This document shows positions 37,057 to 51,413 of a stretch of DNA of 64,000 nucleotides, in pieces. The stretch is from Vicinamibacterales bacterium (lineage in GTDB: Bacteria > Acidobacteriota > Vicinamibacteria > Vicinamibacterales > SCN-69-37): positions 138,923 to 202,922 of the forward strand of contig JAURFE010000003.1 in assembly GCA_030827135.1 (NCBI GenBank), read 5' to 3'. Made by a program: the position numbers and the translations under genes. The notes beneath the pieces are model-generated. The model was not told the DNA's origin and made no database searches. It was given only the letters and a program-made list of their open reading frames with translations. Each line of letters opens with the position of its first letter. Positions within the stretch are counted from its first letter, which is position 1.

Positions 37057-37121
37057 CGTAGGGCGCGCTGGGCTTGAGCGCGCCGGCCAGGCCCGCGGCA
37101 GTTCAGCGGGCCCTACCTACG
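37057..37121. repeat. Bipartite hairpin repeat at the argH 3' end
   Basis: Hairpin one: GGCGCGCT (37062-37069) with AGCGCGCC (37077-37084). Hairpin two: GGCCCGC (37090-37096) with GCGGGCC (37106-37112). The pair is flanked outward by CGTAGG and CCTACCTACG. The stop codon of argH (TAG, 37113-37115) is made from the repeat's own conserved GTAGGG string. Confidence 0.85.
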
Positions 37122-38495
37122 TCCTGCAATCCAGGTCTTCGTCTCGGCCAGAGCGGCAGCCACGGGCGCGGGGCCGGTGGACTGCGGAGTCAGGCGTGCC
37201 TTCACCGCAGCCTCAGGCGTGATCGCCTTGAACACGCCCTCCTCGAAGACCTCGTCATACGCGCGCCAGTCGGCGAGGGTCAACGCCGAGAAGTCGCGGC
37301 CGGACTCGTAAAGGTCGCGCACGATTCTGCCCGACACTTCGTGTGCGGTCCGGAACGGCAACCCGCGACCGACGAGATAGTCGGCGACTTCTGTGGCGAG
37401 CAATAACCCCGACGCCGCCTGCCGCATCACAGCGGGTCGCGGAGTCAACGTGCGCACCACGGCCGCGCAGGTCATCAGACATCCCGCGAGATCGTCTTCG
37501 GCACCAAACGCCAACGCTTTGTCTTCCTGCAGGTCTTTGTTGTACCCGAGCGGCAGCCCCTTCATCGTGGCCATCCACCCTGAGAGCACACCGATCGCGC
37601 GCCCGGCCTTGCCGCGCACCAGCTCCATCGGGTCCGGGTTCTTCTTCTGCGGCATGAGACTGGACCCGGTCGCCACCTCGTCGGCCAATTCGAAAAAACC
37701 GAATTCTTCACTCGTGAAAAGGATCACGTCTTCCGCCAGGCGGCTCAGGCGGGTCATGCACATCGCGCACGCGTACATGAACGACGCGACGAAGTCGCGG
37801 TCGCCCGACGTGTCAATGCTGTTGAGCGTCACGCGCGAAAATCCGAGGGTCTTCGCGAGGAACGCCGTGTCGATCGCGTAACTCGTGCCGGCGATCGCAC
37901 CTGATCCAAGCGGCATCAGGTCCGCTTCGTGCCTGGCCGCCTCAAGTCGATCCCAATCCCGTCGCAACGCCGCGGCGTACGAAAGCCACACGTGCGCCAC
38001 AAGCACAGGCTGCGCTCGACGCAAATGCGTGTACGACGGCATCGTCGCCTCACCCGCGCGCTCGGCCTGCTCCACCATGGCCTCAATCACCGACACCACA
38101 GCCCACTGGAGCACAGGGATGCGGCGACGGAGGTAGAGGCGGAAGTCGACGGAGACCTGTTCGTTGCGGGAACGCCCGGTATGCAGTCGTTTGCCGGCAT
38201 CACCAATGCGCGCGACGAGTTCGCGTTCCACAAACGCATGCACATCCTCATCGTCGGCCCCATCCATCATGGCGGGGTTGGCGTGTACGGCGGCACGCAC
38301 GGCATCAAGACCGGAGACGATCGCCTCAGTGTCGGCGGGTGTGAGCACACCGGCACGGCCCAGCGCCTGCGCCCACGCGCGACTCCCCGTGATGTCGTCG
38401 TCGATCAGCCGTTTGTCAACGGGCAGCGACTTGCCGAAGTCGAAGACTTCAGCGTTCGGGGCATTGTCGAATCGTCCACTCCACAGGTTCGCCAT
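37113..38495 (-). CDS. argH: Argininosuccinate lyase
   Basis: A 460-residue enzyme of the fumarase/aspartase superfamily that splits argininosuccinate into arginine and fumarate. It begins MANLWSGRFDNAPNAE, the standard ArgH N-terminus, carries VDFRLYLRRRI and TMPSYTHLRRAQPV in the middle, and has the family signature GSSLMPQKKNPDPMELVRG near residue 270. It appears intact and active. I start at 38495; the longer frame to 38525 has no similarity. It begins 5 bases after the argG-like stop. The last codons and stop are formed by a hairpin repeat. Confidence 0.95.
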   Translation of the reverse strand: MANLWSGRFDNAPNAEVFDFGKSLPVDKRLIDDDITGSRAWAQALGRAGVLTPADTEAIVSGLDAVRAAVHANPAMMDGADDEDVHAFVERELVARIGDAGKRLHTGRSRNEQVSVDFRLYLRRRIPVLQWAVVSVIEAMVEQAERAGEATMPSYTHLRRAQPVLVAHVWLSYAAALRRDWDRLEAARHEADLMPLGSGAIAGTSYAIDTAFLAKTLGFSRVTLNSIDTSGDRDFVASFMYACAMCMTRLSRLAEDVILFTSEEFGFFELADEVATGSSLMPQKKNPDPMELVRGKAGRAIGVLSGWMATMKGLPLGYNKDLQEDKALAFGAEDDLAGCLMTCAAVVRTLTPRPAVMRQAASGLLLATEVADYLVGRGLPFRTAHEVSGRIVRDLYESGRDFSALTLADWRAYDEVFEEGVFKAITPEAAVKARLTPQSTGPAPVAAALAETKTWIAGRR

Positions 38496-38500
38496 CCGGC

Positions 38501-39400
38501 CTACTTCGCCTCGCCATGAAAACACGTGAACCGCACGGTGCCCTCGCCGCGACCGAGCACGGTGAGCGCCTGGTGCAACACCGTGGAGGCTGGAGCCTCT
38601 TCGATCGTGCGGGGCCGGACGCCCGCAAGCGCCGGGTGATCCCGTCGACCGATCCCGTGTGCGCCGGCGATTGTATCGAGGGACACGATGAGATCGACGA
38701 GCGGAAGTTCGACGCCATTCAAGGCGACGGGCAGGCCGCGCGCAAATGTGATCTCAACAGCAGCGGGTTCGATCGCCCAGTCCGCGACCGAGCGCGTCAT
38801 GGTGAAGAGGTCGGTTGGCGGCTCGGCGGCCGCATCGGCGAGCGCGTCGGTGGTCACCGCGCGGCCCCACAGGTTGCGGACTTCCATGACGTGCCGGGTA
38901 TAGGTCCACGGCACGGGAATGCCGCGCGCCTTGCCGAACTCAATGAGGCCCTGGACGTCCATACCCCATTCACGCGCCGGCGCCAGGAGCGGCATGTCGG
39001 CACCCGCGTCGATAAACGCAGCTTCAAGGCCCATGGGGTCTGACGCCGGAAAGGCGCTGCCATGCGCAACGGCTGTCGCGCCTTCGATTCGCGCCACTTC
39101 CAGCGTGTGTTTGGCGATGTACGGCCGCGCAAGCGCAGCCGCGCGCGGCTGATCAAGAGGGAGGGCCCATGCCGGTCCGACGGCGTCACGGGCAAAGGCA
39201 TTGCGCGCGTCGAGCACGTGCGCGCGCGTGGCGCCAATCCCCAGCGCACGATCACGCACATCGTTGAGGTCGCGACCCTGGCCGAGATCCATGGTCACGG
39301 TGGCCACCTCCTCCGCCCCCTGCTCGAGCAACCACCCCAGCGCCGCCGAGGTCACCAGGTCCCCCGAATACGCCAGCACCACCCGTTGTCCTTTGATCAC
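38501..39400 (-). CDS. argG: Degenerate argininosuccinate synthase homologue (ArgG-like)
   Basis: A 299-residue ArgG homologue in the arg operon, about 100 residues shorter than functional enzymes. Similarity is clear across the length: MDLGQGRDLNDVRDRALGIG, EGATAVAHGS, LAPAREWGM, RNLWGRAV and PVALNGVELPLVDLI. Two key motifs are altered. The ATP PP-loop AYSGGLDTS reads AYSGDLVTS (about residue 10), and the Asp/citrulline-binding GKGNDQVRFE region reads SAFPASDPMGLE (about 113-124). The usual C-terminal helical extension is missing. I prefer the GTG at 39400, which overlaps the argR stop (GTGA) and has AAGGAAG upstream; an ATG at 39421 is the alternative. It is likely inactive as a synthase, unless it is a divergent variant. 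Confidence 0.8.
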   Translation of the reverse strand: MIKGQRVVLAYSGDLVTSAALGWLLEQGAEEVATVTMDLGQGRDLNDVRDRALGIGATRAHVLDARNAFARDAVGPAWALPLDQPRAAALARPYIAKHTLEVARIEGATAVAHGSAFPASDPMGLEAAFIDAGADMPLLAPAREWGMDVQGLIEFGKARGIPVPWTYTRHVMEVRNLWGRAVTTDALADAAAEPPTDLFTMTRSVADWAIEPAAVEITFARGLPVALNGVELPLVDLIVSLDTIAGAHGIGRRDHPALAGVRPRTIEEAPASTVLHQALTVLGRGEGTVRFTCFHGEAK

Positions 39401-39846
39401 TTCCGCACTTCCTTGTTCCATCGCGCTTCGATCGCTGCAGCGGCCTCTGCCCCACGGCAGATGATCAGGATCGTGTCGTCGCCGGCAATCGTGCCGGCGA
39501 TTTCGCTGAGCTTCACCCGGTCGATCAGCACCGCCACGCTCTGCGCCTGCCCCGGATCGGTCCGTAGAACCACCATGGCATCCACTCGCTCGAGCCCCCT
39601 GACCAGCGTGCCAATCGCGCGGCGCAACTGGTCTTCCGTCGCCGGGCTGCTTCGTTCGACGCCAGCCCGTTCGTAGGCGCCATCCCCGGCCCGCTTCACA
39701 AGCCCTAACTCTCTGAGATCACGGGAGATAGTGGCCTGAGTGGCTTCGATGCCCCTGGCAGCAAGCCGGACGCGCAACTCCTCCTGGGATGCAACCGCCT
39801 CCTGATCAATGACCGCGAGAATCTGCGACTGGCGCCAGGACTTCAT
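39397..39846 (-). CDS. argR: Arginine repressor
   Basis: A 149-residue ArgR. The N-terminal winged helix includes SQEELRVRLAARGIEATQAT followed by ISRDLRELGLVK (about residues 20-52). The C-terminal hexamerisation and arginine-binding domain ends with the typical EIAGTIAGDDTILIICRG (about 114-131), holding the Asp pair that binds arginine. It heads a leftward operon with argG and argH and is divergent from argC. The 79-base intergenic region carries a strong ARG-box-like palindrome at the argC start, so both arms are probably under arginine control, including autoregulation. Confidence 0.93.
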   Translation of the reverse strand: MKSWRQSQILAVIDQEAVASQEELRVRLAARGIEATQATISRDLRELGLVKRAGDGAYERAGVERSSPATEDQLRRAIGTLVRGLERVDAMVVLRTDPGQAQSVAVLIDRVKLSEIAGTIAGDDTILIICRGAEAAAAIEARWNKEVRK

Positions 39847-39925: not shown

Positions 39926-39941
39926 ATGAATAAATATTCAT
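39926..39941. promoter_or_regulatory. ARG box (ArgR operator) covering the argC start codon
   Basis: ATGAATAAATATTCAT is a perfect 16-base palindrome matching the core of the ArgR operator (TGAAT-N4-ATTCA, in E. coli WNTGAATWWWWATTCANW). It contains the argC ATG and the next codons. Weaker half sites are visible at 39884-39893 (TTGAATATTT) and 39851-39855 (ATTCA). ArgR bound here would block the start region of the transcript. Confidence 0.8.
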
Positions 39942-40930
39942 CTCCAGTTAGTGTCGCGATCGCGGGGGCCACGGGATACGCCGGTCAGGAACTTCTGACC
40001 TTGCTCAACCGGCATCCGGAGGTCCACATCGCGGCGGCCATGTCGTCGAGTCCTGATTCTGCAGCGCGGCCAATGCCGCGGCTGGCCCGGACGTGGGACG
40101 GCACGGTCGAACCACTCAACCGCGCGAAGTTGACCGAGTCCGCGTTTGTCTTTCTGGCTGTGCCGGAAGCGGCGGCGGCCGATCTCGCGCCCGAATTGCT
40201 CGAGGCCGGCGCGAAGGTGATTGATCTGTCGGGGGCCTTCCGGATCAAGGACGCGGCCATTCGCGCGAAGTGGTATCCGGCAACCACGCTGCTGCCGGAT
40301 GGCGTCGCGTACGGGCTGGTCGAACACAATCGGGCGGCCATCGAGCAGGCGTCATTGGTCGCGTGCCCGGGGTGTTATCCGACGGCTGCGTTGCTCGCGT
40401 TGACGCCACTGATGCAGGCGGGCTTGCTCGACCTGTCGCGCGACGTCGTGGTGGACGCCAAGTCCGGCATTTCAGGCGCCGGGCGCACCGCGAGTGATCG
40501 CACGCACTTTTCCGAAAACCATGGGTCGATGGCGGCCTACGGCGTCCTCGGCCACCGGCATGTCGCGGAGATGGAACAGTCGCTCGGGTGCGAGGTGACG
40601 TTTGCGCCGCACCTGGTGCCGCTCGATCGCGGCATCCTTGAAACGATCTACGTGCGGGTGACGCCCGAAACGACGGCGGAAGCGATTGGCGAAACCCTGG
40701 GCCGCGCCTATCAGCACGCGCCGTTTGTGCGATTGACAGGTGGTGCCCTGCCGGAAATCAAACACGTCGCCTGGACCAACTTCTGCGATATCGGCTGGAA
40801 GTTCGATGCGGCGTCGCGCCGGCTGGTCCTCGTGGTGTGCATCGACAATTTGGTCAAGGGCGCCGCGGGCCAGGCCGTGCAGAACTTCAACGTCATTTGT
40901 GGCTTTGATGAACGGACGGGACTGCGATGA
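39926..40930 (+). CDS. argC: N-acetyl-gamma-glutamyl-phosphate reductase
   Basis: A 334-residue ArgC that reduces N-acetylglutamyl phosphate to the semialdehyde with NADPH. The Rossmann motif VAIAGATGYAGQELL is at about residues 9-23, and the catalytic Cys is in VACPGCYPTAALLAL near 150. FAPHLVPLDRGILETIY near 230 is also typical. The start is set at 39926, where AAAGG precedes it by 5 bases; the frame upstream to 39809 crosses the promoter and is not coding. The ATG is embedded in an ARG box. It overlaps argB by 4 bases (ATGA, 40927-40930). Confidence 0.95.
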   Translation: MNKYSSPVSVAIAGATGYAGQELLTLLNRHPEVHIAAAMSSSPDSAARPMPRLARTWDGTVEPLNRAKLTESAFVFLAVPEAAAADLAPELLEAGAKVIDLSGAFRIKDAAIRAKWYPATTLLPDGVAYGLVEHNRAAIEQASLVACPGCYPTAALLALTPLMQAGLLDLSRDVVVDAKSGISGAGRTASDRTHFSENHGSMAAYGVLGHRHVAEMEQSLGCEVTFAPHLVPLDRGILETIYVRVTPETTAEAIGETLGRAYQHAPFVRLTGGALPEIKHVAWTNFCDIGWKFDAASRRLVLVVCIDNLVKGAAGQAVQNFNVICGFDERTGLR

Positions 40931-41745
40931 ACGGTCCCCTGGTGCTCAAGCTTGGCGGCGAATTGATCGAAACCGCCGCGGCGAGGAACGCGTTTGCGGC
41001 GATGGTGGCCGGCCTTCGCGCGACTCGTCCACTCGCGATTGTGCACGGCGGCGGCCGCGCGATTGACGCGGAGCTTGATCGTCGTGGCATCGTGCCGCAG
41101 AAGGCCGATGGTCTGCGGATCACGGACGGCCCGACGCGTGACGCGGTGGTCGCGGTGCTTGCCGGGTCGGCCAATACCGATCTGGTCGCCGCGCTCGTGA
41201 ATGCCTCGGTGCAGGCGGTCGGCCTGACGGGCGTTGATGCGGCGATGGCCGAGGCGAAGAAGGCGCCGGCGCTGCGCTCGACCAAGGGGATTGATGTGGA
41301 TCTGGGTCTTGTCGGCGATCCCGACGATGTGGATCCGGCGCTGGTGGAGTTGCTGATGACGTCCGGTTACCTCCCGGTGGTCGCCAGTCTGGGTATTGAG
41401 CGGGGCCCTTCGGGTTCGGGCATCCTCAACGTCAATGCGGATGTCATGGCGTGCCGGCTGGCTGCCGCGCTCGGCGCGGAACTGATCATTGCGGGCACGA
41501 CGGCGGGCGTCCTGGATTCGCAGGGGGCATTGCTGCCCCTGCTCACGATCGACGACATGGACGCGCTGATCAACGACGGGACGGCAACGGCCGGCATGGT
41601 GGCCAAACTTCGCGCCTGCCGGACGGCGCTCGACGAAGGTGTGCCGTCTGTGCGGCTTGTTGACGGCCGAGGCTTTGCCGCCGGGGTCGATCCCTGCGAC
41701 ACCCCGGGCACCACTCTCACAGCGAAGGTCACGATTCACTCATGA
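40927..41745 (+). CDS. argB: Acetylglutamate kinase
   Basis: A 272-residue amino acid kinase that phosphorylates N-acetylglutamate. LVLKLGGELIE (residues 5-15) is the phosphate-binding start, VHGGGRAIDAEL near 39 is the family signature, and NVNADVMACRLAAALGA near 168 with GTATAGMVAKLRAC near 218 form the rest of the ATP and substrate sites. There is no N-terminal helix of the kind seen in arginine-inhibited hexameric enzymes, so it may not be feedback-inhibited in that way. It is coupled by ATGA overlaps to argC upstream and argD downstream. Confidence 0.95.
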   Translation: MNGPLVLKLGGELIETAAARNAFAAMVAGLRATRPLAIVHGGGRAIDAELDRRGIVPQKADGLRITDGPTRDAVVAVLAGSANTDLVAALVNASVQAVGLTGVDAAMAEAKKAPALRSTKGIDVDLGLVGDPDDVDPALVELLMTSGYLPVVASLGIERGPSGSGILNVNADVMACRLAAALGAELIIAGTTAGVLDSQGALLPLLTIDDMDALINDGTATAGMVAKLRACRTALDEGVPSVRLVDGRGFAAGVDPCDTPGTTLTAKVTIHS

Positions 41746-42962
41746 GCACAACCGCCACTGCGCCCTCGTCCGTTCAGGCACTGGAAGCCGAGCACATCCT
41801 GCAGGTGTACCGACGTACCCCGGTGGTCTTTGATCGCGGCGAGGGGTCGTATCTGATCACGACCGAGGGAAAGCGCTACCTCGACTTCATCTCCGGTGTC
41901 GGCGTCGTGTCGCTGGGGCATGCCAATCCGGTGCTCGCGGCGGCGATCGCCGACCAGTCGCGAACGCTGTTGCATACGTCGAACCTGTTCTTTCACCCGT
42001 TGCAGGCGGAAGTGGCGACCCGTCTCTCGTCGCTCACGGGGCTTGACCGCGCGTTCTTCTGCAACAGCGGCACCGAGGCCGTCGAGGCCTGTCTCAAGTT
42101 CGCGCGCCGCTACTGGCACACCAAGGGGCAGACCGCGCGCACGAAGTACATCGCGTTTTCGCATGCGTTCCACGGGCGCACAATGGGTTCGTTGTCGGTC
42201 ACATGGGACGACCATTACCGCGCGCCGTTTGCCCCGCTGATTCCCAACGTGGTGTTCGTGGACAACAACGACCCTGCGGCGCTCGCCGCGGCGGCGGACG
42301 ACACCACAGCCGCACTCATCGTGGAGCCGATCCAGGGTGAAGGCGGCGTGCGTCCGATCAGCCCGGAGATGGCCGCGGCCATCGAGGCGGCGTGCGCATC
42401 CACGGGCGCGTTGCTGATTGCGGACGAGGTGCAGAGCGGATCGGGCCGCACCGGCGCGTTTCTCTACAGCCAGACGCTGGGGTTGACGCCTGATCTCGTC
42501 GCGTTGGGCAAGGCGCTCGGCGCCGGCGTGCCGGTGGGCGTCGCGATGTTCTCGAATGAGGTGGCGTCTGCCGCCTCACCCGGCGACCACGGCAGCACCT
42601 ACGGCGGCAATCTGCTGGCCTGCCGCGCGGCCCTGGTGTTTCTGGATGCGCTGGCGTCGCCGGAGTTGCAGAGCTCCATGGCCCTGGCGGCGGCACGGCT
42701 CGGCAAGGGATTCTGCGCCATGATGGGCCGCGTCCCCGCCATCCGTAACGTGCGCGGCAAGGGATTGATGATGGGCATCGACCTGGCGTTTGACGCCGCA
42801 CCCGTGGTCGCGGCCGCCTTTGAGCGCGGGTTGCTGATCAATCGGACGAGTTCGACGGTGGTGCGGTTGTTGCCGCCGTACACGATTACGGAAGCCGACG
42901 TCGATGCGGCGTTGCCGCTGTTGGAAGACGCCATTGTGGCGGCAGGGAGGGACTCGAAGTGA
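41742..42962 (+). CDS. argD: Acetylornithine aminotransferase
   Basis: A 406-residue class III PLP aminotransferase that converts N-acetylglutamate semialdehyde to N-acetylornithine. FFCNSGTEAVEACLKFARRY near residue 105 and AFSHAFHGRTMGSLSVT-like sequence near 143 are standard. LLIADEVQSGSGRTGAF near 225 holds the PLP-binding Asp, and LVALGKALGAGVPVG near 255 the cofactor Lys. The start overlaps argB (ATGA), and its stop overlaps the GTG of the argA-like gene (GTGA, 42959-42962). Confidence 0.94.
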   Translation: MSTTATAPSSVQALEAEHILQVYRRTPVVFDRGEGSYLITTEGKRYLDFISGVGVVSLGHANPVLAAAIADQSRTLLHTSNLFFHPLQAEVATRLSSLTGLDRAFFCNSGTEAVEACLKFARRYWHTKGQTARTKYIAFSHAFHGRTMGSLSVTWDDHYRAPFAPLIPNVVFVDNNDPAALAAAADDTTAALIVEPIQGEGGVRPISPEMAAAIEAACASTGALLIADEVQSGSGRTGAFLYSQTLGLTPDLVALGKALGAGVPVGVAMFSNEVASAASPGDHGSTYGGNLLACRAALVFLDALASPELQSSMALAAARLGKGFCAMMGRVPAIRNVRGKGLMMGIDLAFDAAPVVAAAFERGLLINRTSSTVVRLLPPYTITEADVDAALPLLEDAIVAAGRDSK

Positions 42963-43462
42963 CGGACCTTGTTGTACGGGCGGCCACCATGGCCGACGCT
43001 GAAGCCATTCATCAGCTGGTGCAATCGCACCTCGACGAAGGACACCTGCTGCCCCGGAACATCTCCGAACTGCGCGCCCACGCCGAACGGTTCGTGGTGT
43101 GTGACGTCGCCGGCCAGATCACCGCGTGCGCGGAACTGGCGCCTTTGTCCGCGTCGGTCGCCGAAGTGCGGTCGCTTGTGGTCTCTCGGGACTTCCGCCG
43201 GGTCGGCCTCGCGCAGCGCCTCGTCAACGAACTGCGGACACGCGCCAAGGCGCTGGGCTTCGACACGTTGACGGCCTTTACGCACGATGCGCGGTTCTTC
43301 GTACGTCAGGGCTTCTCCATCGTGCCGCATGTGTGGGTGCCGGAGAAGATCATGACCGACTGCGTCGGCTGCCCGCTGTTCCGCCACTGCGAACAGTACG
43401 CCATGGTGCTGCCGCTTGCGGCCCACCAGACGTATCGTCCGGCCGCCGTGAGCGCGGCCTGA
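42959..43462 (+). CDS. argA: Short-form N-acetylglutamate synthase (GNAT)
   Basis: A 167-residue GNAT acetyltransferase of the short ArgA type that acetylates glutamate for arginine synthesis. VVSRDFRRVGLAQRLVNELR (about 74-93) is the acetyl-CoA loop, and HDARFFVRQGFS near 115 is motif B. The Cys-containing tail DCVGCPLFRHCEQYAM near 139 is characteristic of this clade, unlike amino-acid-kinase-fused ArgA. It starts at a GTG overlapping the argD stop. With argJ present it would mainly top up acetylglutamate in the cyclic pathway. Confidence 0.85.
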   Translation: MTDLVVRAATMADAEAIHQLVQSHLDEGHLLPRNISELRAHAERFVVCDVAGQITACAELAPLSASVAEVRSLVVSRDFRRVGLAQRLVNELRTRAKALGFDTLTAFTHDARFFVRQGFSIVPHVWVPEKIMTDCVGCPLFRHCEQYAMVLPLAAHQTYRPAAVSAA

Positions 43463-43467
43463 TCGTG

Positions 43468-44688
43468 ATGGACGCCATCCTCATCGACGGAGGTGTGACC
43501 ACGCCGGCCGGGTTTGTCGCGGCCGGTGTGTATTGCGGCATCAAGAAGCCGACGCACGCCTGGCCACTGGACCTGTGTCTTATTGCGTCCACGTCCGGCC
43601 CGGTGCCGGCGGCAGCCGTGTTCACGACCAACCTGGCGATCGCTGCACCGGTGGTGGTCTCGCGCGATCACCTCCTCCGGGCCGGCGGCCTCTGCGCGGG
43701 AGCCGTCGTGAACAGCGGATGCGCCAATGCCTGTACGGGTGAGGCCGGCATGGCCGTGGCCAAAGGCATGGCCGGCGCGGCCGCCACAGCGCTTGGAGTG
43801 AGCGACGAGTTCATTTTTGTCTCCTCCACCGGCGTCATCGGCGTTCCCCTGAGCCTGGCGAAGGTGCGCGCCGGCATCACGGCGGCGCAGGCTGCGCTAT
43901 CGATCGAAGGCGGCGCTGACGCGACACGCGCGATCATGACGACCGATCCGTTCCCGAAATCGTGCGCGGCCGTCATCGACACACCGCAGGGGCGTGTGAC
44001 CGTCGGCGGCATCACCAAAGGGTCCGGCATGATCGAGCCCCGGATGGCCACCATGCTCGGATTCCTCACCACCGACGCGAAAGTGGCCCCGGACGTGTTG
44101 CAGGTCGCATTGCGCCGCGTCTGCGATGAGACATTCAACGCCATCACTGTGGACGGCGAGTGCTCGACCAACGACTGTGTGTTATTGATGGCCTCGGGTG
44201 CATCCGGCGTCGAGATCACCGACCCTGCGGATCCTGCGCTGGTCGAGCCATTGCGGACAGTCGCCGGTCACCTCGCGCGCGAAATCGTGCGTGGCGGCGA
44301 AGGCGCAACCAAACTGGTCACCGTACGTGTCACCGGCGCGGTCTCACTCGAGGACGCTCGGCTCGCGGCGCGCACGATCGCCAACTCGCCACTCGTCAAG
44401 ACCGCCATTCATGGAGGCGACCCGAACTGGGGTCGCCTCATCGCTGCGTCAGGCCGGTCCGGCGCCCACTTCGTGCTCGAACACGCCTCCGTGCGCATCG
44501 GCGACGTGGATCTCTTCGTGAACGGTGTACCCTACGACGAGAGGGCCGACGCGGCCGCCACGGTGCTCCAGCAGAAAGAGATGGCCATCACCGTCGACCT
44601 CGGCACCGGCGGCGGCCACGAAGCCACGATGTGGACCTGCGACTTCAGCGCCGAATACGTGAAGATCAACGCCGAGTACCGGACGTAA
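43468..44688 (+). CDS. argJ: Bifunctional ornithine acetyltransferase / N-acetylglutamate synthase
   Basis: A 406-residue ArgJ that transfers the acetyl group from acetylornithine to glutamate. The self-cleavage site lies in KGSGMIEPRMATMLGFLTTD (about residues 181-200), where the Thr of ATML becomes the nucleophile after processing into alpha and beta chains. VVNSGCANACTGEAGM near 80 and HGGDPNWGRLIAASGRSG near 315 are also conserved. The start is the ATG at 43468 (a GTG at 43465 is possible), 5 bases after argA. The much longer frame from 43126 lies over argA and is not real. Confidence 0.94.
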   Translation: MDAILIDGGVTTPAGFVAAGVYCGIKKPTHAWPLDLCLIASTSGPVPAAAVFTTNLAIAAPVVVSRDHLLRAGGLCAGAVVNSGCANACTGEAGMAVAKGMAGAAATALGVSDEFIFVSSTGVIGVPLSLAKVRAGITAAQAALSIEGGADATRAIMTTDPFPKSCAAVIDTPQGRVTVGGITKGSGMIEPRMATMLGFLTTDAKVAPDVLQVALRRVCDETFNAITVDGECSTNDCVLLMASGASGVEITDPADPALVEPLRTVAGHLAREIVRGGEGATKLVTVRVTGAVSLEDARLAARTIANSPLVKTAIHGGDPNWGRLIAASGRSGAHFVLEHASVRIGDVDLFVNGVPYDERADAAATVLQQKEMAITVDLGTGGGHEATMWTCDFSAEYVKINAEYRT

Positions 44689-44695
44689 TCCAACC

Positions 44696-45643
44696 ATGAT
44701 CGTTGAACTGCCCGCTCTGAAGTCCAAGGACTTCCTCTCCATCCTCGACCTCAGCCCCAACGCCCTCGAACAGGCGCTTGAACTGGCTGCGGTCTTCAAA
44801 TCCGAACGCGTGAAGGGTCGCCCGCACGCCCACGTGCTCGAAGGGCAACACGTCGCGCTGTTGTTCGAGAAGCCGTCGCTCCGAACGCACTCCGCGTTCA
44901 CCATCGCCGTGCGCGAACTCGGCGGCGACGTGATTGAACCGGCATCCGATGTCGCCTTTGGCGGTCGCGAATCGGCCTCTGACGTCGCGCGTAATCTTGA
45001 ACGCTGGGTCCCCATCGTGGTGGTCCGGACGTTTGAACAGGCACGACTCGAACGATTCGCCGCGTCCGCATCCCGTATGCGCGTGATCAATGCGCTCACT
45101 GATGAGGAACATCCCTGCCAGGCACTGGCGGACATGCAGGCGCTCATCGAACGTTGGGGCTCGGTCAAGGGACGCACCGTCACGTACGTCGGCGACGGCA
45201 ACAACGTGGCCGCCTCGCTCGCGCAGGCATCGGTCATGCTCGGCATGCACGTCCGCGTTGCCACACCCGCCGGTTTTGAGTTGAATGCCGGACTTGCGGA
45301 GTCAGTCACACGCATCGCACGGTTCGGCGCGACATTCACGCAGGGTTACGACCCCATCGCGGCCGTCAAGGGCGCTGATGCGGTCTACACCGACGCCTGG
45401 GCGTCGATGGGCCAGGAGGCCGACGCCGAACGGCGCGCCGGCATTTTCAGGCCCTTCCAGGTCAACGCCGCGCTCATGGCCGCCGCCGGCACGGACACGC
45501 TCTTTATGCACTGCCTCCCCGCCCACCGGGGGCTCGAAGTCACCGACGAGGTCATCGACTCCCCGGCGTCAATCGTGTTCGACCAGAGCGAAAACCGTCT
45601 GCACACGCAGAAGGCGTTGCTCGCGATGATGGCCGCGCGGTAG
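44696..45643 (+). CDS. argF: Ornithine carbamoyltransferase
   Basis: A 315-residue carbamoyltransferase. The carbamoyl-phosphate loop reads LFEKPSLRTHSAFTIAVREL near residue 57 (STRTR in most enzymes, SLRTH here, keeping Ser, Arg and Thr). DEEHPCQALADMQAL near 137 and TYVGDGNNVAASLA near 162 are typical, DAWASMGQEAD near 231 binds ornithine, and LFMHCLPAHRG near 268 contains the catalytic Cys. An acetylornithine-using variant is less likely because argJ is present to make free ornithine. Its stop codon TAG is the first part of a hairpin repeat. Confidence 0.93.
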   Translation: MIVELPALKSKDFLSILDLSPNALEQALELAAVFKSERVKGRPHAHVLEGQHVALLFEKPSLRTHSAFTIAVRELGGDVIEPASDVAFGGRESASDVARNLERWVPIVVVRTFEQARLERFAASASRMRVINALTDEEHPCQALADMQALIERWGSVKGRTVTYVGDGNNVAASLAQASVMLGMHVRVATPAGFELNAGLAESVTRIARFGATFTQGYDPIAAVKGADAVYTDAWASMGQEADAERRAGIFRPFQVNAALMAAAGTDTLFMHCLPAHRGLEVTDEVIDSPASIVFDQSENRLHTQKALLAMMAAR

Positions 45644-47345: not shown

Positions 47346-49967
47346 TTGGCACGTCGAACGATTCACTCCGCAGTCCTTGGGTTGGCAGCGCTCGCTGCCC
47401 TCCTCGTCCCGGCCGCCGGCGCACGTCTTGCCGGTAACACCGAGGCCCCCGCCCCGCAGGCGGCTCAGGCCTCGTCGGTCGTGGCCATCCGCAATGCGAC
47501 GCTCATCACGGTGTCGCGCGGCACCATCAACAACGGCACGATTGTGATGCGGGACGGCAAGATTGCCGCCATCGGTACGAACGTCCAGATTCCCGCCGGC
47601 GCGACGCTCGTTGACGGCACGGGCAAATTTGTGACGCCCGGGCTGATTGATGCGCACTCGCACATCGGCAACGACGCCATCAACGAAGGGGCCACGGCGG
47701 TCAGTTCGATGACCGACATGGGTCAGGTGCTCAACCCGACGGCCATCGCGATTCAGCGCGACCTGGCCGGCGGCCTGACGATCGCCAACGTGTTGCACGG
47801 GTCGGCCAATCCGATCGGCGGCGGCGCGGTCACGATCAAGCTGCGCTGGGGTGTGGAGCGCGGCGACGAGCTCATCATGGAAGGCTCGATGCCCGGCATC
47901 AAGTTCGCGCTGGGTGAAAACCCGAAGCGGTCGGGCGGCGGCGCCGGCGGCCTGCAGGGCAACGCCCTCCCCCGGTACCCGGGCACCCGCCAGGGTGTGG
48001 AGTTCGTCATTCGCGACGCGTTCACACGCGCGAAGAAATATCAGAAGGATTGGGCGGCGTACAACGCCTCGCCGAACAAGGCCACCACGATTCCGCCGCG
48101 TCGCGACCTCCAGCTCGACGCGCTGGTCGAAGTACTCGAAGGCAAACGTCTGGTGCACTGCCACTCCTACCGCGCGGACGAAATCCTCATGATGATCCGT
48201 CTCGCCGACGAGATGGGCTTCAAGGTCGCCACCTTCCAGCACGTGCTCGAGGGCTACAAGGTCGCGAAGGAAATTGCCGCGCATGGCGCCGGCGCGTCGA
48301 CCTTCTCCGACTGGTGGGGCTACAAGATCGAAGCCGAAGACGCGATCCCGGGCAACGCCGGCCTGATGACCCACAAGGGCGTGAACGTCTCGATCAACTC
48401 GGATAGTGCGGAACACGCGCGCCGCATGAACACCGAAGCGGCCAAGTCTGTGCGATGGGGTGACGTCAGCGACGACCAGGCGCTCGCCATGGTCACGATG
48501 AACCCCGCCCGTCAGCTCCGCATTGAAGACCGTGTGGGGTCCCTCGACGTCGGCAAGGATGCAGACGTCGTCATCTGGAACAACCATCCGCTGAGCACGT
48601 TCGCGACCGTCGATCACACGTACATCGACGGCAAGCTCTATTACGATCGCGTCGCCGACCTCGCGCGCATCGCGGCCGCCAACACGGATCGGCCCGCCCC
48701 GGCCGCACCTGCGGTGACCGGCAACCTGTTCAACGTGACGCCGGAAACCGGCAAGGTCGTCTACAACGCCAACGGTGCGACCTGGGCGATCACCAACGCG
48801 CGCATCCACACCGTCTCCGGTCCGGTGATTCCGCGCGGCACCGTGGTCATCCGCGGCAACACGATTCAGGCGGTCGGCGCGAATGTCTCGATTCCGGCGG
48901 GCGCCCGCGTCGTGGACGCCCGCGGCGCGAACGTCTATCCCGGCTTCATCGACGCGCAGACGGACCTCGGCCTTAACGAACCGGGCGTCCGGAGCTTCGA
49001 CGATGTGAACGAAATTCTGACGTTCAACCAGATGCTGCGCACGAAGGTGGCGTATCAGTCCGATAGTGATGCGATCGCGGTCGCGCGTACCGAAGGCATC
49101 ACGTCGGCCGGGATTTTCCCTGGCGGCGGCATCATCGGTGGTGAAGTGCCGCTGATGAACCTCGACGGCTGGACGTGGGAAGAAAACGTGGTACGTCCGG
49201 CAGCGGGCCTCGCGTTCACGTTCCCGGGCGGCGGTGGCGGCGGACGCGGCGGTGGTGGCGGCTTCCCGGCGGGCGGGCGCGCCGGCGGCGCGGCCACCTC
49301 GGGTCTCCGGGAACTGGAGAACCTGCTTGCGCAGGCCAAGGTGTACGGTGCGAACCCGAACCGCGACATGAACTGGAACCTCGAGCCGTTTCTGCCGATT
49401 CTCAAGAAACAGCAGGCGTTCTACGTGAGCGCCGGTAGCGAAGCCGCGATCACGCAGGCGTTGCAGTGGGCCCAGCGGCAGAACGTCAACATCGTCATCC
49501 GCACGAGCCCGGCGTCGGCCGTGGCGAGCGCGGTGGCACTCAAGGCTGCCAACGTCCCGGTGATCATCAGCACGATTCTGGCGCTCCCGGCCGGCGGCGA
49601 CGAGACGTTCCATGCGGCCACGTATCAGGCGGCGGGGGAACTCGAGAAGGCCGGCGTCACGTTTGCGTTCTCAAGCGGCGGCTTCGAGACGGTGCGGCTG
49701 ATTCCGTTCCAGGCCGCGATGTCGGTGGCATGGGGCCTCAGCAAGGAGCGCGCGCTGCAGGCGATGACGCTCGATGCCGCGAAGATTTTTGGCGCCGACA
49801 GGCTCGTCGGCAGCATTGAACCCGGCAAGGTCGCGAACCTCGTCGTCACCAACGGCGATGCGATGGAAATCCGGTCGCGCGTGTTGCACGTGGTTATCGC
49901 CGGAAAAGATGTGCCGCTGCAGAACAAGCAGACGGAATTGTTCAACCGGTACATGGGTCGGCAGTAG
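47346..49967 (+). CDS. Exported double-domain amidohydrolase
   Basis: An 873-residue secreted protein with two amidohydrolase-superfamily units in tandem. The signal peptide covers residues 1-24. Unit one (about 45-445) has the metal motif [10 protein letters not shown] (HxH) and later His and Asp positions ([28 protein letters not shown]), so it looks catalytic; imidazolonepropionase-like enzymes are the closest type. Unit two (about 475-860) repeats the fold, but HxH is replaced in [10 protein letters not shown] and the later Asp is absent, so it is probably a pseudo-domain. A glycine-rich RGG-type insert lies at about 626-652. The TTG start is set by GGAGG. The next gene begins 12 bases after the stop. 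Confidence 0.85.
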
Positions 49968-49972
49968 GAGGA
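49966..49972 (+). promoter_or_regulatory. Ribosome binding site that decides the second amidohydrolase start
   Basis: AGGAGGA overlaps the stop codon of the preceding gene. It is 1 base from the ATG at 49974 but 7 bases from the ATG at 49980, so the second is the likely start. Confidence 0.65.
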
Positions 49973-49979
49973 CATGCAG

Positions 49980-51413
49980 ATGCGCAACCTGAAATCAGTC
50001 GTCGTTCAGGGCGCCGCAGTTCTCGCTGCGACGCTCACGTTCACGCTCACCGGCGGGGCCGCCCCACAGGGACTGACCTACGCCATTCGCGGCGCGAAGA
50101 TCGTCACGGTCTCCGGAGCCACGATCGACAACGGCACGGTGCTCATTCGCGACGGTGTCATCCAGGCGGTGGGCGCCTCGGTCACCGTCCCGGCCGACGC
50201 GCTCGTCACGGACGGCACCGGCCTCACGGTGTACCCGGGCTTCATCGACCTGAACAGCGGCGCCCCACTCGGCGAAGCCGCCCAGGCGGCGGCCCCCGAC
50301 TTCGGGGGTCGAGGTGGCGGCGGAGGACGCGGCGGCGGCGCGGCGGAGGCGACCTTCACGAGCCGCGAAGAGGCCGAGCGCGCCAAGCGAGCGGCGATTC
50401 TCCGGCCGGACTACGAGGCGGCGCAGCACCTTGTCGAAGCCAGCGACGGCCTCAGCGCGATGGCCCAGGCCGGCATCACCTCGGTGCTCGCGGTGCCCTC
50501 TCAGGGCATCTTCAAGGGCCAGAGCGCGCTGGTGAATACCGTGTATCCGGCTGACGATCCGCAGATCAGCACCGTCGCGGATTACCGGCGCGGCCTCGCC
50601 GTCGTCAAGGCCCCCGTGGCGCAACACGTGAACATCGGCGGACGCGGCGGCGGCACGGGCTACCCGAACTCGCTGCTGGGCACGATCGCGTTCACGCGTC
50701 AGGGGTTCCTCGATGCCCAGTGGCAACGCGACGCCACGGCCATCTACGAAAAGACCGGCGCGCGGGGTCCGCGTCCGCTCGTCGAGCCCTCACTCGACGC
50801 ACTGAAGCCGGCGCTCGCGAAGCAGATGCCGACGGCGTTTGATGCGAACCAGGCGCGCGAGATCGACCGGTCACTCATCATGGCGAAGGACTTCGGCCTT
50901 GACCCGATCATCGTGGGTGGCGCCGAGTCCGGGAAACGCATCGCCGAGCTGCAGAAGGCCGGCGCACGGGTCATTCTCGGCGTGAACTTTCAGGGCGGCG
51001 GCGGGGGCGGCGGGCGAGGCGGCGGAGGCGGCGGGGCCCAGGCCATCACTGACGCAACCAGGACCGCGGCTCAACTGGCGCAGGCGAACGTGTTGTTCGG
51101 CTTCACGGGCGGCGGCACCCTGACACCGTCCGCGTTCCTTGCGAACGTGACGCGCACGATCAAGGATGGCGGCCTGCCGCCGGCCACGGCGCTTCGCGCC
51201 CTGACGCTCGACGCCGCAAGGATCGCCGGCGCGGCCGATCGTCTTGGCTCACTCGAACAGGGCAAGATCGCCAATATCGTGGTTATGGAGGGCGAGGTAT
51301 TCGAAGCCAACGCCCGCGTGCGTCACGTCTTCATCGACGGACGCCCGGTCGAGATCACCGGCGCAGCACCGGCGGCGCCCGGCCGCGGCGGGCGGGGAGG
51401 CGGCGACCGCTAG
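49980..51413 (+). CDS. Exported amidohydrolase-fold protein lacking metal ligands
   Basis: A 477-residue secreted protein homologous to the second unit of the preceding protein: LTYAIRGAKIVTVSGATIDN and YPGFIDLNSGAPLG align with its N-terminal beta sandwich and barrel entry. The HxH metal motif is missing (FIDLNSG), and I see no replacement His/Asp set, so hydrolytic activity is doubtful. Arg/Gly-rich inserts occur at about residues 107-121 and 337-355 and at the C-terminus (GRGGRGGGDR). The signal peptide covers residues 1-27. The start at 49980 follows from ribosome-binding-site spacing. It is co-transcribed with the double-domain gene and may form a complex with it (inference). Confidence 0.8.
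   Translation: MRNLKSVVVQGAAVLAATLTFTLTGGAAPQGLTYAIRGAKIVTVSGATIDNGTVLIRDGVIQAVGASVTVPADALVTDGTGLTVYPGFIDLNSGAPLGEAAQAAAPDFGGRGGGGGRGGGAAEATFTSREEAERAKRAAILRPDYEAAQHLVEASDGLSAMAQAGITSVLAVPSQGIFKGQSALVNTVYPADDPQISTVADYRRGLAVVKAPVAQHVNIGGRGGGTGYPNSLLGTIAFTRQGFLDAQWQRDATAIYEKTGARGPRPLVEPSLDALKPALAKQMPTAFDANQAREIDRSLIMAKDFGLDPIIVGGAESGKRIAELQKAGARVILGVNFQGGGGGGGRGGGGGGAQAITDATRTAAQLAQANVLFGFTGGGTLTPSAFLANVTRTIKDGGLPPATALRALTLDAARIAGAADRLGSLEQGKIANIVVMEGEVFEANARVRHVFIDGRPVEITGAAPAAPGRGGRGGGDR

Follow-up and report, generated by a model that had tools for sequence, protein, structure and literature searches.

A degenerate argininosuccinate synthase gene under purifying selection between argR and argH of Vicinamibacterales, a candidate pseudoenzyme

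Why would a bacterium maintain, in the operon place of argG, a gene whose product has lost the residues that make argininosuccinate? The question arose from a gene, here called argGx, in the window (the whole stretch of 64,000 nucleotides analyzed) from a Vicinamibacterales bacterium. TIGRFAM profile matches confirmed that the gene lies between argR and argH in a complete arginine cluster, with argC, argB, argD, argJ and argF on the forward strand and argR, argGx and argH on the reverse strand (Table 1). The longest frame of argGx begins with an ATG at 39421 and encodes 306 aa; translation probably starts instead at a GTG (39400) that shares bases with the argR stop codon, and the ATG of argH follows 5 nt past the argGx stop. 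The perfect palindrome TGAATAAATATTCA is the only ARG-box-like match in the window at 0 to 2 mismatches (0.08 expected), and its position over the start codon of argC makes control of at least the argC arm by ArgR probable. Between argD and argJ lies a gene for a GNAT acetyltransferase of the PRK07757 kind (42959-43462); a similar gene occupies this place in most of the fetched loci of the order, and the product may be an extra N-acetylglutamate synthase. Downstream of argF and a gene for inorganic pyrophosphatase are two adjoining amidohydrolase-family genes (873 and 479 aa; 47346-51413).

Table 1. Features of the arginine cluster and of argGx, in positions of the window.
Feature	Position	Strand	Basis or remark
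argGx, degenerate ArgG	38501..39400	-	299 aa from the probable GTG start; PF00764 and PF20979 matches, TIGR00032 under cut-off
argR, arginine repressor	39397..39846	-	TIGR01529, 133.4 bits, above cut-off; stop overlaps the probable argGx start (GTGA)
argH, argininosuccinate lyase	37113..38489	-	TIGR00838, 507 bits
argC, divergent from argR-argGx-argH	39926..40930	+	TIGR01850, 358 bits
argB	40927..41745	+	TIGR00761
argD	41742..42962	+	TIGR00707
argJ	43432..44688	+	TIGR00120, 412 bits
argF, ornithine carbamoyltransferase	44696..45643	+	TIGR00658, 329 bits
ARG-box-like perfect palindrome TGAATAAATATTCA	39927..39940	+	across the argC start codon
Former PP-loop, SGGLDTS to SGDLVTS	39347..39367	-	aligned to canonical ArgG from the order and from T. 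thermophilus
Former aspartate/citrulline motif, HG.TGKGNDQVRFE to (H)GSAFPASDPMGLE (HGSAFPASDPMGLE)	39023..39061	-	alignments
Retained module, T. thermophilus residues 27-76, strand-helix-strand-helix, motif G..L...R..AL..GA.RAHVLD.R	39161..39310	-	retention in 63 long degenerate copies
Retained last beta-strand TVRFTCFH after the deleted helical hairpin	38519..38542	-	alignment; DSSP on the model (strand 294-301); 1kh1 structural alignment to residue 347

The similarity of argGx to ArgG is clear, as the sequence-only reading had stated, with matches to PF00764 (1.5e-32) and PF20979 (3.9e-23), and its scores fall below the cut-offs for the ArgG family (TIGR00032, 208.7 bits for a cut-off of 268.2; PRK00509, 212.8 bits for a cut-off of 334). 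Alignment bore out the reported loss of the PP-loop and of the GKGNDQVRFE substrate motif, and showed that VENR..G.KSRE.YEAP is also lost, the gene product reading HPA--LAGVRPRTIEEAP. In all, 9 of 27 positions conserved across the active site and motifs are kept. At Y84, R92, T116, N120, D121, R124, S173, S182, E184, E258 and Y270 (T. thermophilus numbering, mapped onto the 1j1z chain), which from general knowledge we take to serve citrulline and aspartate binding, argGx carries Q, R, A, S, D, G, M, A, T, A and E, so that only R92 and D121 of the 11 checked match. The C-terminal ~100 residues had been described as absent; the helical hairpin (~60 residues) and the C-terminal arm are indeed deleted, but this is not a simple truncation, since the final beta-strand, GTVRFTCFHG, is present and packs in the structure model. 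The AlphaFold model of argGx (pLDDT 94.1, pTM 0.90) could be superposed, over its residues 12-306, on T. thermophilus ArgG from residue 1 to residue 347 (287 aligned, 1.8 A); comparison with Legionella ArgG 6xnq gave Z 32.7 (293 aligned, 2.1 A). The protein is thus predicted to retain the core of the ArgG fold.

A search of the genome for a canonical argG found, on another contig, an intact 447-aa long (E. coli-type) ArgG (866.9 bits for a cut-off of 657) carrying SGGLDTS and YKGNDIERF, with no deviation at the 296 columns that 24 long ArgG proteins of the order share without variation. Arginine synthesis in this organism thus needs neither the operonic copy nor new chemistry, and the suggestion that argGx represents a new way to make argininosuccinate was rejected.

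Selection on argGx was estimated with a pairwise codon model. Comparison of the window copy with its nearest relative (G000/G004) gave a dN/dS of 0.089 at a dS of 0.74, with a likelihood ratio of 162 against 1, and another pair in the same genus (G001/G006) gave 0.084. In all other within-genus pairs tested dN/dS was no higher than 0.18, with likelihood ratios of at least 77 against 1; because several of the more distant pairs have saturated synonymous sites, most weight falls on the two close pairs of the genus. For G000/G004 the corresponding values were 0.017 for argH, 0.034 for argR, 0.033 for argC and 0.062 for argB, so that argGx exceeds these four arg genes 1.4- to 5-fold in dN/dS; it is constrained, less so than its neighbors. 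A pseudogene was therefore rejected, dN/dS being far from 1 and the frame unbroken. The sequence-only reading had taken the open and coupled frame as the sign of maintenance. Maintenance holds, with dN/dS of 0.05-0.09 in the genus, and it is shown by dN/dS and not by the frame; because of the G+C content (about 80% at third positions) openness is weak evidence: simulations of a comparable neutral branch left the frame open in about 3-16% of runs. Intact relatives with this copy decaying alone had been named as the finding that would tell against maintenance. Nearly intact operonic copies do occur at this position in two genomes of the same family (G010 and G012), which also have the long ArgG, but the decay is not confined to the window, the dead copy being common to 7 of 7 genomes searched in the genus. 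Homology to an enzyme, lost catalytic residues and maintenance by selection together mark argGx as a candidate pseudoenzyme.

A search of contigs gave only one very close relative. The 60 loci fetched first share the gene order argR-argGx-argH, and argC is divergent in those where the stretch extends to it and it was recognized. Among 118 operons placed on a tree, the operonic copy was degenerate or lost in 72 of the 84 from genomes with a second ArgG vs 9 of the 34 from genomes without one; the Fisher test gave p 1e-9 without phylogenetic correction, and the corrected test, with few informative independent pairs, gave a median p of 0.5. Parsimony on this tree, built by a quick maximum-likelihood search, required that the operonic copy switch between the intact and the dead or lost state at least 13 times. 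Judged from the residues that remain, this pattern shows that catalysis was lost recurrently in many lineages. Family f4 has a second ArgG of a different type, and there the operonic copy has degenerated yet is kept; in f9 (g13/g85) yet another ArgG type accompanies complete loss of the operonic gene. These further types, seen at L210 and L211 (f4) and at L212 and L213 (f9g13), share about 32% and 36% identity with the long ArgG. The f2g80 genomes G127, G129 and G131 (L136, L145 and L146) have an additional argH outside the arginine operon, with 60-61% identity to that of the window. Degenerate copies were mostly found by similarity to the window protein, which favors copies with conserved parts and could make conservation look stronger than it is, and checks by synteny gave few counter-examples. 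Nine genomes have a degenerate copy and no second ArgG was seen in them, including two that are 97-98% complete (G031 and G018); by our own estimate about 7-8 such cases are expected from draft incompleteness, and the nine fit genes missing from draft genomes.

What survives in the degenerate copies is unevenly distributed. G36, G52, A53, R55, H57, D60 and E106 (Thermus numbering) were kept in 63/63 of the long degenerate copies (effective number about 52); all but E106, which lies just outside it, belong to the module of residues 27-76. In the same copies the canonical residues were retained at frequencies of 0.19 (D12), 0.09 (Y84), 0.02 (N120), 0.04 (E258), 0.00 (K265) and 0.13 (Y270). Retention of polar conserved residues was 0.85 in the module vs 0.38 elsewhere (permutation p 5e-5). 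Even eroded copies of 194-242 aa in G105, G110, G115 and G120 keep all seven residues, and the 228-aa copy of G105 gave a compact model (pLDDT 93.0); among eroded copies G127 is the exception that breaks the motif. The R55-A-H57 motif is absent from ArgG of neighboring families in the class, which carry other residues there. A DNA pattern for the motif matched in 29 of 396 genomes of the phylum, 27 times at the operonic argG of the order, once elsewhere in G099 and once in another family (G371); the R55/H57 motif is essentially confined to the order's operonic ArgG. The same motif is fixed in the intact ArgG of the order, including genomes without a second ArgG, so that its role could be older than the catalytic decay. 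At invariant residues such as G36, R55 and E106 the codons vary freely among synonyms, indicating that selection acts mostly at the protein level. Because such variation extends to most of the invariant residues, a DNA or RNA element within the conserved segment was rejected. Across the order, a mild narrowing of codon choice relative to the gene average does occur at R45, A48, G52, D60, R62, G230 and S241 (z -3 to -8.4), which might hint at an additional constraint on the nucleic acid or on translation at these seven sites.

Taken together, we favor the reading, with a probability of roughly 0.55, that argGx is a pseudoenzyme derived from the order's original operonic ArgG and kept for a non-catalytic, probably protein-binding role. 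A second ArgG, here the long form on the other contig, would have taken over argininosuccinate synthesis, after which the operonic copy would have shed the helical hairpin and the C-terminal arm along with its ability to bind ATP, citrulline and aspartate. The gene would have stayed coupled between argR and argH because its protein has a second job, resting mainly on the equivalent of residues 27-76 (G36, R45, G52-A53, R55, H57, D60 and R62) plus E106, in a part of the nucleotide-binding domain that lies outside the former ligand loops. Most likely argGx would act as a scaffold or modulator by binding another arginine-metabolism protein, much as dead paralogues like the trypanosome prozyme do, with ArgR, ArgH and the long ArgG as candidates. 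We infer the binding function behind the constraint, the age of the job relative to the loss of catalysis, and the identity of the partner. No recurrent compensating change and no burst was found in ArgH, ArgR or ArgC where argGx is gone, and the search for coevolution of ArgB with loss of argGx gave only one conservative column (R to K in four rows). In several lineages argGx is a remnant or lost, so the job is dispensable there. The sequence-only reading had offered a regulatory pseudoenzyme or a partner of another synthase; this survives best as a class, with no particular partner attached. More tentatively, we suggest that the operonic ArgG of the order long had a second, non-catalytic function through the lineage-specific GA.RAHVLD.R segment. 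Once another ArgG supplied the catalysis, this function would have been exposed repeatedly, catalysis decaying in parallel and the segment remaining frozen.

A serious rival, on balance less likely in our judgment, is slow erosion of a redundant gene whose frame and core are kept by translation between argR and argH. On this view a premature stop or a shift of the frame would lower argH expression, and misfolding of the product would carry a cost; the gene would shrink through in-frame deletions preserving the fold and in the end vanish. The decay forms just such a continuous series, from near-intact copies (beside a long ArgG in G010, G012, G036, G067 and G068) through folded dead ones, copies of 194-242 aa and remnants of 86-96 aa to loss with argR abutting argH. 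Recent loss is exemplified by an 88-aa remnant in G102 vs 316 aa in its close sister G101 (argH 97% identical). Coupling to argH is tight, by overlap or a gap of at most 30 nt in 82 of 105 copies, and many of the retained residues are Gly, Ala, Pro or Leu. However, erosion accounts poorly for the uneven retention of polar residues and for the invariance of R55, H57, D60 and E106: a functionless spacer should keep its core and not the charged residues of one segment, and on this ground a retained non-catalytic role is favored over decay. The dN/dS in the window's genus, near that of working arg genes, also argues against erosion, as does the fact that the gene could be cleanly deleted in several lineages, yet most lineages retain it. 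In G058 argGx is retained despite about 1.7 kb between it and argH (L080, 7062-8759).

A second alternative, which we regard as improbable, is that the dead short ArgG enters mixed complexes with the long ArgG and tunes it as a regulatory subunit. The association of degeneration or loss with a second ArgG agrees with this, and the trypanosome prozyme (PMC5201418) shows that a catalytically dead paralogue can activate an enzyme. Yet simple replacement predicts the same association, the C-terminal arm is lost, and the copies of family f4 degenerated and were kept beside a second ArgG of a different type. Moreover, the motif is fixed also in intact ArgG of genomes that have no second ArgG to be tuned.

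That argGx catalyzes another reaction in an active site rebuilt on the ArgG fold seems very improbable. The window's genus does show fixed replacements (T88A, D175V, S182A, K265R and Y270E) and new motifs (GD..TS, HGS..P.SD and RPR..EEAP) that are common to most or all members, and the nitrile synthetase ArtA is a precedent for changed chemistry on this fold. The replacements, however, vary by lineage whereas the retained segment is common, and with the PP-loop Gly and Asp and nearly all citrulline and aspartate contacts gone the ATP-driven chemistry of the family is unexpected. Finally, a working or alternative argininosuccinate synthase can practically be dismissed: operon position and the degenerate copies of G031 and G018 speak for it, but the catalytic residues are absent, an intact ArgG is in the genome, and the nine degenerate genomes lacking a visible second copy fit draft incompleteness.

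If the more tentative reading, a long-standing second function of the operonic ArgG, is true, the order offers a natural experiment, replicated in a dozen or so lineages, which shows that a core biosynthetic enzyme moonlights. On the preferred reading, an essential metabolic enzyme has repeatedly become a retained pseudoenzyme following gene replacement. The dozens of independently decayed copies separate the catalytic residues from the others and single out R55, H57, D60 and E106. Genes of this kind are likely called argG by position and similarity, yet are without the residues that make argininosuccinate, which calls for caution in annotation. We found no earlier description of a dead ArgG in bacteria in the searchable literature.

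Among known systems, ArgG itself (TIGR00032 / PRK00509; T. thermophilus 1kh1/1j1z, Legionella 6xnq) is closest to argGx in fold, with 36% structural identity, and shares its operon place beside argH. It differs in what argGx is without: the PP-loop, KGNDQVR, VENR, KSR, Y270, the helical hairpin and the C-terminal arm; argGx scores well under the family cut-offs. The 'argininosuccinate synthase-related protein' of NCBIfam NF038212 is likewise derived from ArgG and not annotated as such, but argGx reaches 88.4 bits for a cut-off of 425 and is not of that family. ArtA (9leh, 9lei), like argGx, has an ArgG fold with altered function; unlike argGx, which is 23-24% identical to it and has no PP-loop, it is an active enzyme by its PDB title. 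The nearest conceptual precedent that we found is the prozyme of trypanosome AdoMet decarboxylase, a catalytically dead paralogue with a proven partner and activating role (PMC5201418). In both cases a dead paralogue is kept in the pathway of its active relative, whereas argGx is known from sequence and a structure model, its active counterpart is only distantly related to it, and the change has recurred in many lineages.
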